Shown: piece after piece, positions 37 through 19,150 of the stretch | Numbering within the stretch: position 1 is the stretch's first letter | Layout: each line of letters begins with the position of its first letter | Source of the DNA: a virus | IMG/VR virus record: IMGVR_UViG_3300009032_000011 | Span: 1-29,103 of that record | Reading direction: 5' to 3' (one strand) | DNA: 29,103 nucleotides | The notes under the pieces: generated by a model | What the model saw: only the letters and a program-made list of their open reading frames with translations | Told to the model about the DNA's origin: nothing | The model's database searches: none | Program-made: the position numbers and the translations under genes

Positions 37-1166
37 GCGACCTTCTCTAAAACCAATATTGATTCTTGCTTGATACGAGCATGAGACAAGTTGAAGGCTT
101 TACGAGAAGCGAGGATCTCTCGCTCTATACGCTCAACTAATTTCCATCCCAGCTTCTCGGCTTCTTCAACAATTATGGTACCATTATCAACTACTTCGCC
201 GTGAATTTTCGATGGTCCAATTACTATTCCCCATTTGCAAGTTATGTCAGTGAACGGTGTGATTGCTGAAATCAACGCCCGCATTTGCTCATTAAACTTT
301 GACGCAGTATGCCGATTCTTTTTAAAAAAATGCGACCGCGCGCCAATCTCGTTGGCTTTGACAGCAAGTGGATTTAACCCTAGCCACCACATTCTATACT
401 TGTGATAAAGCCAATATTCATAGGCGTTAGGATACGGAGGAGACGTAATGACCAATCCTATTTTTTGATTCGTAAGGACGCTATCAGCTTTAAGTGAATC
501 AGTACAAAAGATAATCACTTTTGGCGGCAACCCCTTTTCACCTAGATGTACTCGAAACTGCCTGCATGCATTTAAAAAATGTTTGAATACACTATCAAAG
601 GATACGTGCTTTAAAACGGCGGCATAGCGGGTATCGCTGTCTTGGTTTGATGTTCGAACAACGATAGAAGAAAAAGCGAGCTTTAATGCATCTTGAACGT
701 TACCAGGCTCAAGATCCTCAATCTCGGCAATCAAAGCATGCAAAGCTGCCTGGACCTCTGGTAAAAACCAATGATCAACATTTGGAATTTCCCTCGATGT
801 TACCTTCTTATTTTTCTTAGCAGAGATAACAACAAGTTCAGCAATGCTCAAAAATTCCTTAGGTAAGTTGCTTGTTTTGACACGCGAGATCAGACAAGCA
901 ATCGGGTTTAGATCAATTCCGATACTTTCTATCCCAGCTCTCTGCGCCTCAACTAAGGTAACTCCCGATCCGCAAAATGGATCCAGCAGGATTGATTTTG
1001 GCGCAATTCCAAGCTTTTTGATTAGCGCGGCGGGGATCTCACTAATAAATTTAGCAGGATATGGATGAATTGAGTGCAGAGAACGAGCAGTCCCAGACCG
1101 TGGAAAGTCCCAATCAGTTTCGGGATTAGAATTGTCGTCTATGGATCGATCCCTTTTAGTGGACAG
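33..1166 (-). CDS. DNA methyltransferase (N6-adenine or N4-cytosine type), 5' end frameshifted
   Basis: The open frame contains the S-adenosylmethionine-binding motif I, DPFCGSGVTLVEA (about 982-945), preceded by HPYPAKF (about 1067-1047), and the amino-group catalytic motif IV, TSPPY, about 155 residues later. This marks an N6-adenine/N4-cytosine methyltransferase with order I then IV. The frame has no ATG, GTG or TTG before motif I: the first TTG (851-849) lies behind it, and a stop lies at 1169-1167. The sequence before the break continues in the next frame: a Cys-containing stretch LCRSCNHSKRLDCPLKGIDP runs from a possible TTG at 1222 to a stop at 1141. One missing base near 1139-1147 would join them. 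The gene therefore looks like a frameshifted methyltransferase with a zinc-binding-like N-terminus, unless this is an assembly error. It may protect phage DNA from restriction. Confidence 0.72.
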   Translation of the reverse strand: MSTKRDRSIDDNSNPETDWDFPRSGTARSLHSIHPYPAKFISEIPAALIKKLGIAPKSILLDPFCGSGVTLVEAQRAGIESIGIDLNPIACLISRVKTSNLPKEFLSIAELVVISAKKNKKVTSREIPNVDHWFLPEVQAALHALIAEIEDLEPGNVQDALKLAFSSIVVRTSNQDSDTRYAAVLKHVSFDSVFKHFLNACRQFRVHLGEKGLPPKVIIFCTDSLKADSVLTNQKIGLVITSPPYPNAYEYWLYHKYRMWWLGLNPLAVKANEIGARSHFFKKNRHTASKFNEQMRALISAITPFTDITCKWGIVIGPSKIHGEVVDNGTIIVEEAEKLGWKLVERIEREILASRKAFNLSHARIKQESILVLEKVA

Positions 1167-2088: not shown

Positions 2089-2520
2089 ATGAAAACCCAA
2101 ACGATAACTGACGCGAATAACAATAGCGCATCTATTGAGTATTTCGGCACGGAAGAAAAGGCAAGAGCGGCATTAGAGACTCTTAAAAACTGCTCGGACT
2201 GCGTGAACTGTGATTGCTGCACCCGCTGTGTGGGTTGCACCGACTGTGTGGGTTGCCACGACTGTGTGGATTGCTCCGGCTGTTTGAACTGTTTGGAATG
2301 CTTGTTGGGTTGCTCCGGCTGTGATTGTTGTTATGCCTGTAGGCGATGCTCGAACTGCTCGCGCTGCACCCGCTGTGTGGGTTGCTCCGGCTGTGTGGAT
2401 TGCCACGGCTGTGATTGTTGTTATGACTGTAGGCGATGCTCGAACTGCTCGCGCTGCTCCGGCTGCTCGCGATGCGTTCTTCTCTCGGACAAAACGGATA
2501 AAAAGGATAAAAAGCAATGA
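2089..2520 (+). CDS. Cysteine triplet-repeat protein (35 Cys in 95 residues)
   Basis: After a 34-residue N-terminal part (MKTQTITDANNNSASIEYFG onward), residues 35-129 place a Cys at almost every third position (C-x-x-C-x-x-C), interrupted by three CDCC units and one three-residue spacer, and the protein ends in a Lys/Asp-rich tail. Such a strict three-residue period suggests a narrow solenoid whose Cys line one face, able to bind metal or form many disulfides; no enzyme motif is seen. A 51-bp block (2317-2367) recurs at 2407-2457 with one mismatch, so the array grew by duplication. AAAGGA lies seven bases before the ATG. It is transcribed against all neighbouring late genes and overlaps the next gene by ATGA. 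Function unknown. Confidence 0.78.
   Translation: MKTQTITDANNNSASIEYFGTEEKARAALETLKNCSDCVNCDCCTRCVGCTDCVGCHDCVDCSGCLNCLECLLGCSGCDCCYACRRCSNCSRCTRCVGCSGCVDCHGCDCCYDCRRCSNCSRCSGCSRCVLLSDKTDKKDKKQ
2317..2367 (+). repeat. 51-bp internal duplication, copy 1
   Basis: This block inside the Cys-repeat gene is repeated at 2407-2457, 90 bp downstream, with a single mismatch (c/a at 2336/2426). The offset is 30 codons, so the reading frame is kept. A shorter block at 2218-2238 also recurs exactly at 2365-2385. These recent duplications suggest the array can change length. Confidence 0.85.
2407..2457 (+). repeat. 51-bp internal duplication, copy 2
   Basis: Second copy of the block at 2317-2367, in frame, with one base different. 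Confidence 0.85.
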
Positions 2521-2759: not shown

Positions 2760-3032
2760 CTAAGGGACTACTTCAGACGCAGCGTCAAGTGCGTCCGACT
2801 CAGCAAGTACTGCTTCAGCCTTGGTCTTCCCTTCTGCAACCTGAGTGGATGCAGCGTCAAGAATCGCAGAAATTCTATCGAGCTGTGCTTCATCAGCGCC
2901 ACTGTCAAGTGACTCAATGAAGGCTTTGACTTCATCAAGCTTTAAATCTACGGCATCAAGAGTCCCGTTTTGTGCAACAACTGCGTCGCGTAATGCGCCA
3001 GCAGTTGCTTCGATTGTGTCTAGTTTTCCCAT
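2760..3032 (-). CDS. Small helical coiled-coil protein (90 aa)
   Basis: An in-frame start exists at 3098, but ATG 3032 has AAGGAGA at good spacing and is chosen; the protein then begins MGKLDTIEATAGALRDAVV. It is acidic, rich in Ala, Asp and Glu, and almost entirely predicted helix with heptad-like spacing, without Cys, membrane segment or signal peptide. Proteins of this type often lie beside holins in phage lysis regions, but I know of no assigned role. It is the last minus-strand gene before the + cassette, with which it converges. Confidence 0.6.
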   Translation of the reverse strand: MGKLDTIEATAGALRDAVVAQNGTLDAVDLKLDEVKAFIESLDSGADEAQLDRISAILDAASTQVAEGKTKAEAVLAESDALDAASEVVP

Positions 3033-3098
3033 GAGCGTTGTCTCCTTAAGAAGAAAGTTAATTATATCAGTTATAGAAGGTACACAAAAAGAATACAT

Positions 3099-3341
3099 TT
3101 AGAAAACTACATTTGAAGGTATGATTCTTTCCGTGGCGTACCTCCTGTGAATTATACTCATTATGTTGCCGTACAGAGTACCCGCTGCAGTGGCAAGAGC
3201 TGGTATCATAACTCCTGGGTCAGCTCCTCCGTGCAGAATCGCAGCAATGGTCCCGATGGTTGCCAAGATGCTCAGTATGTTACTTCGAACCGTTTTGCTT
3301 TCACTAAGCGTTTTGCCGCCCGCAAGTTTGTTTTTGCTCAT
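3099..3341 (-). CDS. Holin-like small membrane protein (80 aa)
   Basis: ATG 3341 is preceded by AGAGGAG at good spacing. The protein has a charged N-terminus, a hydrophobic segment at residues 21-36 (NILSILATIGTIAAIL), a Gly/Asp turn, a second, weaker hydrophobic segment at 43-64, and a basic C-terminus (HRRY). Size, topology and position next to lysozyme suit a holin that permeabilises the inner membrane for the endolysin. Other small phage membrane proteins share this layout, so the call rests on topology and context. Confidence 0.55.
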   Translation of the reverse strand: MSKNKLAGGKTLSESKTVRSNILSILATIGTIAAILHGGADPGVMIPALATAAGTLYGNIMSIIHRRYATERIIPSNVVF

Positions 3342-3359
3342 AACATAATCTCCTCTTTA

Positions 3360-4598
3360 TTAATCAACTCTTATTTTAGGATTCGGAATCACAGCACACA
3401 CACTACCGTAATGCGCTACCACGTTGAAGGGAAAATCTTTTGCCAGCTTGCGGAACCGAAAAAAGTGACGATTACTCTTATCTTGAGTATATAGCTTGTG
3501 CTCATACGCCGTGGCAATCTTCTTTGGCCCCTTCATCACGTAAACACTCGCCAGCTTAAATGAGGTCTTGTTATAAGATGTAGGTAGGAATGTAACCGCA
3601 CCACGCTGTAGAACGATTGGGTCACTTTGCTTCCAAAGAAAGTTCTTCTTTGCGCCATCCGGCACTTTCAAGAATGTTTTACAACCTTTTTTTCCCTTCT
3701 CATCTTCCGCGCCCCAAGGCTTAGGTAGTTTTACGCGGAACACCAGTTTCTTTTGTAGTTGGTCGAAGATTTCTGATGACGGAAAGTTGGTTCTCTTACG
3801 AGGGTCAACGAAAGCCCCCCCACGCTTCAGTCCGTTGAACTCCGCAATCCAAAGGAATGTCGCATCGCAAGAGGCTGACGATGCCAAGAAACGTGGGAGG
3901 TCGTTGTATGCAATCTTTGGAGACACAATTGCCGGTCGTGCTGGAAGGTCTGTATCCACCCCGTCCATGTTAGAAATACATGGAGGTGTCACATCAGGAG
4001 CATCCCCGTGCCCTTCTGTGATAAAACCAGTTATGGGCTTCACAGGAGTGCTTCGTCCGACAGGATTCCAAACCCATTGGCATCGTTCGGGAAAGAGAGG
4101 TTTGATGGCAGCAACAAGGTTCAAATAGTTCTTAGAGTCTAGGTTCGATTCTAAACCTCCTGAGATGGCACAGGCGACGTTCGGATTACGAGCGTACCAC
4201 TCGGCAAGGGGTTGTAGGTTAGAGCGTATCCTGGTGAACAGGGCTTCGTCGTTCGCCTGTAATTTCTTTTTATACTGGTCTACGGTGAGCGACTTCAGAA
4301 CTTCATAATTTCCACAACGGTTGTTCCGCTGACACACTTCGTTCAGCAGGTGAGATTCCAGGTACTTGGGTCTTGGGTCGGCTGCCCACTGATCAAGACA
4401 CGAAAGGTTGGTACCGAAGGAGTTCCACAAAACGGCCAATCGTAAGGTGGCGCTTCCCTTGTAGGCTCTCATCATGGCTTCACAAGGCCACTTGTCGTGC
4501 AGCGCAGCGTAGGCACCAAGTCCACCCTGGTTCTGAGCAAAGGCACTTCCGGTTATTGAGCAACAAATGAGGAACGCTGTTATGAGTTTAATAGTCAT
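3360..4598 (-). CDS. Exported Cys-containing protein of unknown function (412 aa)
   Basis: The N-terminus is a clear Sec signal peptide: MTIK, a hydrophobic core (LITAFLICCSITG), then a cleavage site after SAFA (residue 21). There is no valid lipobox. The mature part of about 390 residues has around 11 cysteines, consistent with disulfides in the periplasm or outside the cell, and a mixed aromatic/charged composition; WIAEFNGLKRGGAFVDPRKR is a distinctive stretch. I recognise no catalytic motif. The start, preceded by GGAGAAAG, overlaps the end of the lysozyme gene by 11 bases. Position in the lysis module suggests it acts on the envelope or secures host release, but that is inference. Confidence 0.7.
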   Translation of the reverse strand: MTIKLITAFLICCSITGSAFAQNQGGLGAYAALHDKWPCEAMMRAYKGSATLRLAVLWNSFGTNLSCLDQWAADPRPKYLESHLLNEVCQRNNRCGNYEVLKSLTVDQYKKKLQANDEALFTRIRSNLQPLAEWYARNPNVACAISGGLESNLDSKNYLNLVAAIKPLFPERCQWVWNPVGRSTPVKPITGFITEGHGDAPDVTPPCISNMDGVDTDLPARPAIVSPKIAYNDLPRFLASSASCDATFLWIAEFNGLKRGGAFVDPRKRTNFPSSEIFDQLQKKLVFRVKLPKPWGAEDEKGKKGCKTFLKVPDGAKKNFLWKQSDPIVLQRGAVTFLPTSYNKTSFKLASVYVMKGPKKIATAYEHKLYTQDKSNRHFFRFRKLAKDFPFNVVAHYGSVCAVIPNPKIRVD

Positions 4599-5079
4599 AC
4601 TGGTCTTTCTCCAAAAGATTTATTACGCGATCATCTCTTCCCTGGTTAGGTTGACACTTGGGATCCACTTGTTTGGCCCAGAGACTCTCACGAAGTTCCT
4701 GACCGGCTGCAGGCCAATCTGACCGTCGTATGGCGGACAGCATTTTCTTGAAACTTCTGAGGCTTTGAGGCTTCATGCTAAAGGCAAGGTTGATTAAGGC
4801 CAGCTTTCGGTTTTCAGTTAACCCGTCCCACACCTCAATGCCAACAACGTCCTTAGCGGTCGCAGTCGCCACTGCAACGTCTTCGGAAAGTATTTGATAT
4901 ATGACAGCATTACTCAGTGGCTTAGAGTCCAGGTTGTGCCCGACTCCTATGGTAAGAAATCCTTTTGGTGCCCGTACCGGAACCCCAGTGGCGTCGTCGT
5001 AAGGCATACGCTGAACTCCTTCGTCGCGAGTGAGCATGGTGAATATTTTATCGCTAACTGGTTCCTGCACGTCGCTCAT
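4588..5079 (-). CDS. Endolysin, T4-type lysozyme (GH24)
   Basis: This 163-residue protein has the length and motif order of T4 lysozyme: Glu20 in RDEG (the acid), Asp29 in YDDATG, then Thr43 in the LTIGVGHNL signature. The Glu-to-Asp spacing of nine residues equals that of T4; about eight extra residues precede the Thr. It cleaves the N-acetylmuramic acid-N-acetylglucosamine bond of peptidoglycan. There is no signal peptide, so it needs a holin, and two candidate membrane partners are adjacent (5081-5338 and 3099-3341). AAGGTGAAG precedes the ATG. Confidence 0.9.
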   Translation of the reverse strand: MSDVQEPVSDKIFTMLTRDEGVQRMPYDDATGVPVRAPKGFLTIGVGHNLDSKPLSNAVIYQILSEDVAVATATAKDVVGIEVWDGLTENRKLALINLAFSMKPQSLRSFKKMLSAIRRSDWPAAGQELRESLWAKQVDPKCQPNQGRDDRVINLLEKDQYDY

Positions 5080-5080
5080 A

Positions 5081-5338
5081 TTACTTCACCTTGAAATAAT
5101 TTATTATCGCTACTCCAATCGAGGCTACCGCTGCCAGCATACCACTTACTAATACCGTCAAAATCTTGGCACGGTCTGCGCGTTGAGCTGTCAAAGAACT
5201 GACGGCGTGCTTCATACCCTCGATCTCAAGCTTTTGTTCCATCACCTCATTGCGCAGGATTACTAAATCCTGACGGATAAGATTGAGCGACTGGTCTAAT
5301 ATTTGAATTAGTTCCTTCGCGAATTCGCCTTCTCTCAT
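5081..5338 (-). CDS. Coiled-coil protein with C-terminal membrane anchor (XhlA-like, lysis)
   Basis: Residues 1-55 are predicted amphipathic helix (ELIQILDQSLNLIRQDLVIL and onward) and residues 59-80 form one membrane segment ending NYFKVK. This is the plan of XhlA-type lysis proteins: cytoplasmic coiled coil and a C-terminal anchor. From the ATG at 5338 (weak GGGG site) the gene overlaps the 3' end of the receiver gene by 92 bases in another frame. A later ATG at 5242 lies just past that gene's stop, but would lose much of the helix and has a poorly spaced ribosome site. Probable partner of the lysozyme just downstream. Confidence 0.62.
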   Translation of the reverse strand: MREGEFAKELIQILDQSLNLIRQDLVILRNEVMEQKLEIEGMKHAVSSLTAQRADRAKILTVLVSGMLAAVASIGVAIINYFKVK

Positions 5339-5795
5339 TGAGTATAACCCCGCTTAGCCAATATAAACGACGGAGCGCATCGTGACGAATTTTAGCGTGA
5401 ATTAAACTACGAACCAAGTCGTCTTGCCCCATGGTGCCCTTCACTATGTAGTCCTGAGCACCAAGTGCAATTGCTTCTGCGGCTAATTTTGCAGAGGGAA
5501 TTCCTGAATGTACCACTATCGGAACACAGGGGAATTCTTTCAGCAAAGCTCGAACACTCTGCAAGTCCTCGGAGTCAGGCAGATTTATATCTAACAGTAT
5601 AAGGTCAAATGCCCCAGTTTGTAAGGATGCTTTTGCTTCCTCAATCGTGTGGCACACTCCTACTGCGAGTTGAGAAAAAAGGGTCTTGTCACAACCAACG
5701 ATCCTTTCTTGGAACTTGATGACATCGGCAGTACCGTCTTCCATCATTAGGACGCTGAAATTAGTAAGTGTTGGCTGCATGGGGTTGGTCTCCAT
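5247..5795 (-). CDS. Stand-alone response-regulator receiver (REC) protein
   Basis: Residues 13-130 form a complete CheY-like receiver: acidic pair Glu19/Asp20, phospho-acceptor Asp69 in DLILLDINLP, Ser97 in VVHSG, and Lys119 in DYIVKG. All residues needed for phosphorylation by a histidine kinase are present. There is no output domain; about 50 further residues end in a low-complexity tail that is overprinted by the next gene. A strong site, GGGGAGAAA, precedes ATG 5795. The neighbours are virion and lysis genes, an unusual place for a receiver. It might read a host phosphorelay and act on the adjacent membrane protein or a host regulator; no partner kinase is in the window. Confidence 0.85.
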   Translation of the reverse strand: METNPMQPTLTNFSVLMMEDGTADVIKFQERIVGCDKTLFSQLAVGVCHTIEEAKASLQTGAFDLILLDINLPDSEDLQSVRALLKEFPCVPIVVHSGIPSAKLAAEAIALGAQDYIVKGTMGQDDLVRSLIHAKIRHDALRRLYWLSGVILNERRRIREGTNSNIRPVAQSYPSGFSNPAQ

Positions 5796-5797
5796 TG

Positions 5798-5992
5798 TTA
5801 TTTCTCCCCTGGTAGATTATTAATAAAAGCTATAACTGCTTCCCAGTTGCTCGCCAGGGCAAGCGCATCGTCAGCAGTTAAAATGAGTTTCAGTTCTTTA
5901 TTATCAGCATCCCGCACATCCAACTCTATCTTATTTTTATTGGCGTGGTGTATGCCGCGTATCATAACTTTTTTTAAGACTTCATCTCTCAT
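5798..5992 (-). CDS. Hypothetical protein (64 aa)
   Basis: The start is set at ATG 5992, which shares ATGA with the stop of the LamG-like gene and follows GGGAG. The protein starts MRDEVLKKVMIRGIHHANKN, reads as a beta-rich first half (IELDVRDADNKELKLILTAD) and ends in a helix with Trp (NWEAVIAFINNL). No membrane segment is seen. It is coupled upstream to the LamG-like gene and lies two bases before the receiver gene, so all three are probably translated from one message. Function unknown. Confidence 0.6.
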   Translation of the reverse strand: MRDEVLKKVMIRGIHHANKNKIELDVRDADNKELKLILTADDALALASNWEAVIAFINNLPGEK

Positions 5993-6852
5993 GTACCCAC
6001 TCCCGTCAACATCATACTGCCCGGAGAGCCGGTAGCAGGAGGGGAGATAGGAGCTGTGTAATCCGAGTTCCATTCTTGCGATAGTCGTAATGGGTGGGCA
6101 CCTTCAAAAAGACTTGCCATTTCACGTTGAAGAAGTCCTCGGTTCCACAAGAATACATCCCCGATTTTTCCTTTCCATAAATTGGTTACATTTATAGGGT
6201 CCCAGCTTCCAATACCCCACGTGCCGTCAATCGGATGAGAGAATGACGGGTTGGTGGCATCGCCTATGCTTTGATTGCCGTCCATTAATGACGCGAAGCT
6301 GCCAATGGACGGATTGCGATACATCGTAACGTGGTGCCACTTGTTGGCTACGGTGGCAATAGATGGTGAAGCAGAAAAAAGAGCTGCACCTGGCCCAAGG
6401 TCGTATTGCAAGACCATGCCATTTTTGTCAGTGCGATGAATAAAAATGAAATAACTTTTGGTGGCATCACCGCCTACTGAACTTCCTATAAGACTGTACG
6501 TATTGTGTGTAGTGTCATCTACAGTGTAACGCATGGAAAGAGTGAACGGTGTGCTCAGGCTGACTATTCCAGTTCCAATATTTATACAGTCGTCAGTACC
6601 GTCATAAACAAGAGCTGGCCCCCACGGAGAATCAATCCATGCGGAGTTAGTCATGCCCGTACTAAAGGCACCGTGATTGCCTCTGCCAGAAAAGTCTTGA
6701 AGTCTTCTGCCTTGAAACCCGATGGACGGGCACCATGCGCCGATTAGTGCGTTCCAAAGCTCAGGGAATGCCGACTCTGACTTGTTGCGCGCGAAGCCGT
6801 TCTGAAAACTTGGTCGCGCTGAGGGTAGTGGCAACAATCCAGAGAACGTCAA
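5989..6852 (-). CDS. LamG/concanavalin-like virion protein (287 aa)
   Basis: A TTG start at 6852 is supported by GAGGAGA six bases upstream; no nearby ATG fits better. Residues about 35-245 have the hallmarks of a LamG/ConA-like jelly-roll: DFSGRGNHGAF, YDGTDDCINIG, TPFTLSMRY, NKWHHVTMYRN, and GKIGDVFLWNR with a following leucine-rich end. Such domains bind glycans or form host-contact surfaces on phage tails. It closes the run of tail tip and appendage genes, so a surface decoration or receptor-contact role fits. The carbohydrate ligand cannot be read from sequence. Confidence 0.75.
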   Translation of the reverse strand: MTFSGLLPLPSARPSFQNGFARNKSESAFPELWNALIGAWCPSIGFQGRRLQDFSGRGNHGAFSTGMTNSAWIDSPWGPALVYDGTDDCINIGTGIVSLSTPFTLSMRYTVDDTTHNTYSLIGSSVGGDATKSYFIFIHRTDKNGMVLQYDLGPGAALFSASPSIATVANKWHHVTMYRNPSIGSFASLMDGNQSIGDATNPSFSHPIDGTWGIGSWDPINVTNLWKGKIGDVFLWNRGLLQREMASLFEGAHPLRLSQEWNSDYTAPISPPATGSPGSMMLTGVGT

Positions 6853-18382: not shown

Positions 18383-19150
18383 TTAAAGACGGGTAATCGG
18401 CCCCGTGATTTTGATAGTTGCGCTCGCCATCAACTTATCATCAATTTTTGCAGACGGCGTAAAATCCGTCACGTACCCAGCAAAGCTATCGGTAGATGCG
18501 GCGGTATCAGTCCAAACGATGCGGTAATTTCTAACGAGTCTGGCTAATTGGTCGGAACGAAGTCCACCTTGGTTCGCGTTACCTGGAAGGTAATTCAAAT
18601 CAAAGCTGATTTCAGTACCATCGAGCAAGCTCGGAATGAACTCACGGAACGCATTCGGTGACGCCATGTGCGTTGCATCAATAAGCTCCAACTTAACACC
18701 AGGTCCACTGATGTTGGTGATTTCGGCAAGAGTTGTAAAAACCTCTGTTCCTGCCAGGCCACCGCTAAGAACCGCTGAAGCACCAGCCACGATGACACTT
18801 GCTCCTGTTCCTGTACTTATGTTGGCATCAAAGAATTCATCGAACGTTGCGCTTGCGTAGAGATTCGCAATTGCTTGCAGAACGGTAGTGGTTGACAAGC
18901 CGCCAGAGTCCGTGGCTGCGTTAATCAGAACTGACGTTTGAGTAATAACTTGGCTGTAAGCTGTGCTATTTCCTGATACCACAATTCCGAAAGTCAACGC
19001 ATTGCCATAGACACCAGCTGTTTTAGCCAGAACTTTAAGCTGTGCATTGCTGGTTCCGATGATTTTAGAAGCTTTTGTGCCAGCTCCTACACCGCCGTCG
19101 CCCCGTTGAAGCAGTGTTCCAAATCCCGAAGTTCCTTCTGTTGCTGCCAT
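18383..19150 (-). CDS. Major tail tube protein with an inserted domain (255 aa)
   Basis: The core matches lambda-like tail tube proteins: residues 1-20 (GFGTLLQRGDGG) continue at 134 in TEVFTTLAEITNISGPG, then SFDLNYLPG and a C-terminal end SATIKITGPITRL. Between them (about residues 24-133) sits an extra 110-residue, Ser/Thr/Gly-rich domain which also occurs in the connector protein (20362-21309). The core builds the hexameric tube; the insert would most easily project outward. GGGAG precedes the ATG. Confidence 0.86.
   Translation of the reverse strand: MAATEGTSGFGTLLQRGDGGVGAGTKASKIIGTSNAQLKVLAKTAGVYGNALTFGIVVSGNSTAYSQVITQTSVLINAATDSGGLSTTTVLQAIANLYASATFDEFFDANISTGTGASVIVAGASAVLSGGLAGTEVFTTLAEITNISGPGVKLELIDATHMASPNAFREFIPSLLDGTEISFDLNYLPGNANQGGLRSDQLARLVRNYRIVWTDTAASTDSFAGYVTDFTPSAKIDDKLMASATIKITGPITRL

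Follow-up and report, generated by a model that had tools for sequence, protein, structure and literature searches.

The receiver gene and its neighbours

The window, which is the whole 29,103-nucleotide stretch of IMG/VR virus record IMGVR_UViG_3300009032_000011, encodes on its minus strand a series of late genes. In transcription order, these specify a tail tip protein, a tail collar protein, a LamG protein, a 91-aa protein, a CheY-like receiver (REC), a coiled-coil protein with one membrane segment (CC-TM), a T4-type lysozyme, a 412-aa protein, and an 80-aa protein (Table 1).

Table 1. Coordinates of features in the window and of loci in related contigs (L numbers)
Feature	Position	Strand	Description
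LamG/concanavalin-like protein	5989..6852	-	LamG match 5.6e-9; closes the tail-fibre region
91-aa protein	5798..6073	-	Directly upstream of REC; 64 aa from inner start; no family match
REC (CheY-like receiver)	5247..5795	-	182 aa; E19/D20 acidic pocket, D69 phospho-acceptor, S97 switch, K119
REC sub-parts	residues 124-159; 162-182		Extended last helix; tail without predicted structure
REC 3' end/CC-TM 5' end overlap	5247..5338	-	92 bases; codon-position composition
CC-TM	5081..5338	-	85-aa coiled coil, one C-terminal membrane segment (residues 61-79), predicted N-in
T4-type lysozyme (endolysin)	4588..5079	-	163 aa; no signal peptide seen
412-aa protein	3360..4598	-	N-terminal signal-like segment; overlaps lysozyme 3' end
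80-aa weakly hydrophobic protein	3099..3341	-	Holin candidate by size and place alone
HAD-phosphatase-like genes	L018 5327-6001; L139 5242-5973; L148 5238-5966; L173 5294-5971		Directly upstream of REC and CC-TM
Four-gene operons	L010 4113-7204; L012 4117-7157; L124 4437-7330; L160 4088-7075; L194 1958-5048		PAS histidine kinase, Rcp1-like REC, second REC, CC-TM

Judged from its sequence and structural model, the window REC is a classical receiver with a confident REC fold and an intact phosphorylation site. The ORF and its residues are as the earlier note had read them, every one in the position it gave, and the acidic pair, phospho-accepting Asp, Ser/Thr switch, and Lys are all present. REC matches Pfam Response_reg (PF00072) with an E value of 5.4e-12 and 46.3 bits (curated cut-off 30.2), and E19, D20, D69, and K119 are invariant in an alignment of 26 viral and bacterial relatives. 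The AF2 model adopts a (beta-alpha)5 fold with a mean pLDDT of 88, and a Foldseek search with this model retrieves receiver domains from the PDB at probability 1.00, which bears out the predicted fold. AF2 has little confidence in the C-terminal tail, to which it assigns no regular structure. A strong ribosome site, CCAGGGGAG, precedes the gene. A contig from another metagenome (L002) is 99.9% identical to the window over 15.8 kb, REC gene included, so the locus is not an assembly artefact. Receivers are less exceptional in phages than the earlier note had held. CheY-like ones occur in Alteromonas phages V22 and A5, and jumbo phages encode cREC, a divergent receiver associated with NAD/ADP-ribose enzymes but in no case with histidine kinases (PMC7824862). 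The window REC shares the receiver fold with cREC (PF20274), but an identity with that family was rejected, the match being 15.6 bits against a cut-off of 27 (E 0.026). The first 27 bases of the window (positions 1-27) recur in L002 about 2.9 kb further on (18715-18741), so the window probably ends where a repeat broke the assembly.

The neighbouring CC-TM is predicted by AF2, from the single sequence, to form one 83-residue helix. The 92-base overlap between its gene and that of REC, which had been pointed out earlier, is real at the level of ORFs. G+C content by codon position in the overlap (0.58/0.19/0.47) fits the CC-TM frame and not the REC frame. This composition, together with the unstructured, low-confidence REC tail, makes a CC-TM start at 5338 plausible, with the REC tail probably the passive member of the overlap; an alternative is the later start at Met33 (position 5242, just past the REC stop). 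The CC-TM of L002 differs by a single substitution, V to I, in the membrane segment. XhlA-type lysis proteins are small coiled coils with one C-terminal membrane segment, encoded beside an endolysin, and CC-TM is alike in layout and in its adjoining lysozyme gene. However, XhlA profiles gave no match to it at E values up to 1, nor did PHROGs or NCBIfam. The XhlA label given to this product earlier therefore had to be dropped, since no profile supports it.

The lysozyme, which supplies the endolysin of the window's putative lysis cassette, matches Pfam Phage_lysozyme (9.1e-7) and a PHROG endolysin family (2.3e-13). Its start codon adjoins the CC-TM stop and is served by the ribosome site AAGGTGA. 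Profile matches thus confirm both the lysozyme and the LamG protein as neighbours of REC, while the "64-aa gene" of the earlier note does lie upstream of REC but is 91 aa long as a full ORF, 64 aa being its length from an inner Met. The 80-aa product matches no family. A search for lipobox spanins in positions 3000-6200 of the window returned none except a spurious internal match within REC. On the strand opposite to the late genes, positions 2089-2520 (+) encode an extremely cysteine-rich protein of 143 aa, of CxxC type and built of internal direct repeats.

REC and CC-TM as a gene pair across phages

A first scan with the window REC as sole query identified three distant viral relatives (contigs of 92, 274, and 43 kb), and in 3/3 the next gene after REC encodes a one-segment membrane coiled coil. 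Profile scans enlarged the set of REC loci beyond these three. A gene was scored as CC-TM if adjacent to REC on the same strand and encoding 55-220 aa with one membrane segment and a long segment poor in P, G, W, F, Y, and C. By this rule, an adjacent CC-TM is found at 34/77 viral REC loci, a raw count biased upward because the seeds of the profile scans were RECs already paired with CC-TM, and at 0/55 bacterial REC homologues. The rule is satisfied by 23 of the 590 other genes at the same viral loci (3.9%). Collapsing viral loci that share non-signalling genes left 38 gene-sharing groups, 10 of which are positive (Fisher p 6e-5 versus bacteria; binomial p 1.4e-6 versus 3.9%). Two parts of the evidence escape this ascertainment: the three relatives of the first scan, and the Alteromonas phages, which came from a structure search. 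That REC and CC-TM are a recurrent gene pair in unrelated phages is thus well supported. Of the gene order of REC, XhlA, and lysozyme that the earlier note proposed to look for in related phages, REC with a coiled-coil membrane protein was indeed found, sometimes directly beside endolysin, holin, or spanins; since relatives carry the pair, the REC gene is no acquisition confined to this one phage.

CC-TM-like proteins are common in phages, and those paired with REC share no common family. Basic residues are distributed unevenly between the 15-residue flanks of the membrane segment. The 22 proteins with a C-terminal anchor have 74 K/R before and 32 after the segment, while the eight with an N-terminal anchor have one before and 29 after. 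A cytoplasmic coiled coil is consequently predicted for both orientations, and with this topology REC could bind the coiled coil of CC-TM in the cytoplasm. In one phage group (L018, L139, L148, and L173), a HAD-phosphatase-like gene lies directly upstream of the pair, and the product in L173 has a weak Acid_phosphat_B match. The phosphorelay may be a target of this protein, or there may be no connection.

Two contigs belong to the same broad group as the window, L145 having a tail tip protein 36% identical to that of the window and L174 a terminase 44% identical. L145 encodes an SLT-type lysozyme, REC, and a 76-aa CC-TM, in that order. Compared to the window, SLT replaces the T4-type lysozyme and sits on the other side of REC, with REC and CC-TM kept together. 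In L174, an N-anchored coiled coil precedes REC, and HNH and terminase genes follow a few genes on. By identity, the closest sequences to the window REC are bacterial (38% to a REC from Chloroflexota). The REC tree, poorly resolved and with weak bootstrap, needs approximately eight label changes and gives no clear support to a single origin of phage RECs. Searching annotated phages with the window REC by tblastn gave no match, and other REC queries returned mostly bacterial contigs filed as phage, or nothing. A search with the window tail protein found the near-identical contig only.

Cultured phages, lysis genes, and histidine kinases near the pair

Two cultured Alteromonas phages encode comparable receivers. 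Both CheY-like RECs have been listed as class II AMG and not among the lysis genes, with V22 gp29, gp31, and gp32 described as unknown (PMC7289586, PMC10579305). The V22 order is C92 amidase, coiled coil gp29, REC gp30, Rz-like gp31, an Rz1-like gene, and gp32 with two membrane segments. In A5, a schitovirus, it is coiled coil gp10, REC gp11, Rz gp12, an Rz1-like gene, gp13 with two membrane segments, and gp14, the annotated endolysin. V22 gp31 is an Rz-like spanin (PHROG lysis match, 7e-6) whose gene overlaps REC gp30 by 32 bases, and A5 gp12 matches Rz at 2.9e-8. We observed a nested Rz1-like lipoprotein gene in each phage: that of V22 (L196; MN877442.1, 26492-26791) overlaps gp31 and is absent from the GenBank annotation, and that of A5 (L197; 5723-6055), also unannotated, overlaps gp12. 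Four related contigs (L199-L202) keep the V22/A5 order with different downstream enzymes, which in L199 is a Peptidase_M15_3 (7.9e-11). Like V22 gp30 and A5 gp11, the window REC is stand-alone, classical, and located after tail-fibre genes. A coiled-coil protein precedes REC in V22 and A5, and a membrane lysis protein overlaps its 3' end, as in the window. However, the window REC is only weakly related to theirs in sequence and its partner is a C-anchored CC-TM instead of Rz.

Lysis genes accompany the pair in several other lineages. L154 has the order GH108 endolysin, CC-TM, REC; a PHROG holin lies 36 bases after REC in L029/L030 and just downstream in L033; an Rz/Rz1-like nested pair, judged by eye alone, is upstream in L026; and L009 shows a weak Rz-like match. 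Distances are greater for GH108 in L148/L149 (about 3.3 kb), SLT in L139 (about 27 kb), and the lysozyme of L004 (about 53 kb). Tail fibre genes are the neighbours in L010/L012, and the pair of Microcoleus phage My-WqHQDG adjoins primase/PIF1 genes. A search of 49 records with GH108, SLT, and M15_4 left most without any match, and Peptidase_M15_4 had none in any record, so that the link to lysis comes from about seven lineages. It is the position of the genes that suggests a lysis role for the pair, and not in every lineage.

In the window record and the L002 contig, both of which may be fragments, no HATPase_c (histidine kinase) was found. A complete two-component system, with its kinase in the same genome, is thus not seen in the window record, which points to the host as the putative phosphoryl source. 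Elsewhere, a kinase adjoins the REC/CC-TM pair (L010, L011, L012, L024, L025, L124, L160/L162, L180, and the Microcoleus phage). L010, L011, L012, L025, and L124 have the order kinase, REC, REC, CC-TM; the kinases of L024 and L180 are membrane kinases; and L009 encodes a REC-PAS-kinase fusion. Large phages and a cyanophage carry a four-gene operon in which a PAS histidine kinase is followed by an Rcp1-like REC, a second REC, and CC-TM (Table 1). In the GenBank entry of the Microcoleus phage, kinase, REC, REC, and CC-TM are WOL31350-WOL31353. As in the window, its REC is followed by a coiled coil with a C-terminal membrane segment and the genes overlap. Unlike the window, it encodes a PAS histidine kinase itself, along with another REC, and the genes lie near DNA primase/helicase and not lysis genes.

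A possible role in lysis timing

The usual account of lysis timing invokes the accumulation of holin and, for a few phages, lysis inhibition. One part of the earlier note's interpretation still stands, namely that the receiver is intact, lies in a lysis region, and is tied to the membrane protein encoded next to it. From the phosphorylation site, the fold, the pairing, the predicted topology, and the position among lysis genes, we infer phosphorylation, binding, and an effect on lysis time. REC and CC-TM would be a two-gene signalling module of the late/lysis region. D69 would be phosphorylated by a host histidine kinase or acetyl phosphate, or in other phages by the phage kinase adjoining REC, and phosphorylation would alter the binding of REC to the cytoplasmic coiled coil of CC-TM, via the receiver face or the long last helix. 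CC-TM would then act on holin, spanin, or endolysin release at the inner membrane, and lysis would be advanced or delayed according to the signal. On the proposal that REC, depending on its phosphorylation, governs a membrane-anchored coiled coil and thereby the timing of lysis, we judge the balance to be even.

REC might instead reprogram the host as a decoy or AMG, either a sink for phosphoryl groups or a competitor of a host response regulator, its site among lysis genes reflecting only late expression. The window REC, stand-alone and with neither output domain nor phage kinase, would suit such a role, as would the published class II AMG status of the V22 receiver. We nevertheless consider this unlikely, since it fails to explain the repeated presence of an adjacent coiled-coil membrane partner, the overlapping frames, and the phages with their own kinase beside REC. 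The pair could also serve a membrane-signalling function unrelated to lysis: it might exclude superinfecting phages, sense envelope stress, or control a membrane protein of the host, for example. Lysis neighbours would then be a coincidence, membrane proteins being plentiful in the late region. Consistent with this, the pair adjoins tail-fibre or replication genes in several lineages, and detected lysis genes adjoin it in a minority only. Yet in V22, A5, and the four related contigs REC is flanked directly by a coiled-coil gene and Rz/Rz1, and holin (L029/L030) or endolysin (L145 and L154) is nearby in others, which makes this improbable in our view.

That REC is a passenger gene from a host, kept by chance, would agree with its bacterial closest sequences and with the label changes in the tree. 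Its active-site residues are retained, however, the pairing with CC-TM recurs in unrelated phages, and the kindred contigs L145 and L174 also carry the REC pair, so that this reading, already disfavoured, seems very improbable. A virion-associated REC, injected and acting early in infection, has in its favour the nearby tail genes of the window, L003, L005, and V22. It is the hardest to credit, since REC matches no structural family and late action at the membrane better suits a membrane-anchored partner and neighbours such as lysozyme, Rz, and holin.

Control of lysis timing by a membrane-anchored coiled coil under REC would resemble T4 lysis inhibition, in which RI and RIII act on holin T. 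The likeness is one of concept, signal-dependent holin control with a cytoplasmic component, and the T4 system is not known to involve a receiver or phosphorylation. Although RECs in phages are already known, their pairing with CC-TM seems undescribed: we found no description of it, or of REC in lysis cassettes, in the open-access literature, which is a weak negative.

The link to two cultured phage-host systems, V22 and A5, makes the pair of uncultured phages directly testable, and it offers a possible function for V22 gp29, gp31, and gp32 and for the previously unannotated Rz1-like gene. Tentatively, with the balance tilting somewhat against it, we propose that such phage modules form a widespread class that has escaped description, one in which lysis would be timed by phosphorelay through a classical receiver acting on a membrane coiled coil, with kinases drawn from the host or encoded by the phage. 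If this is true, a phage could adjust its lysis, through the phosphorelay, to the state of its host or environment; some phages, as their gene arrangement suggests, may time host lysis by a phosphorylation signal.
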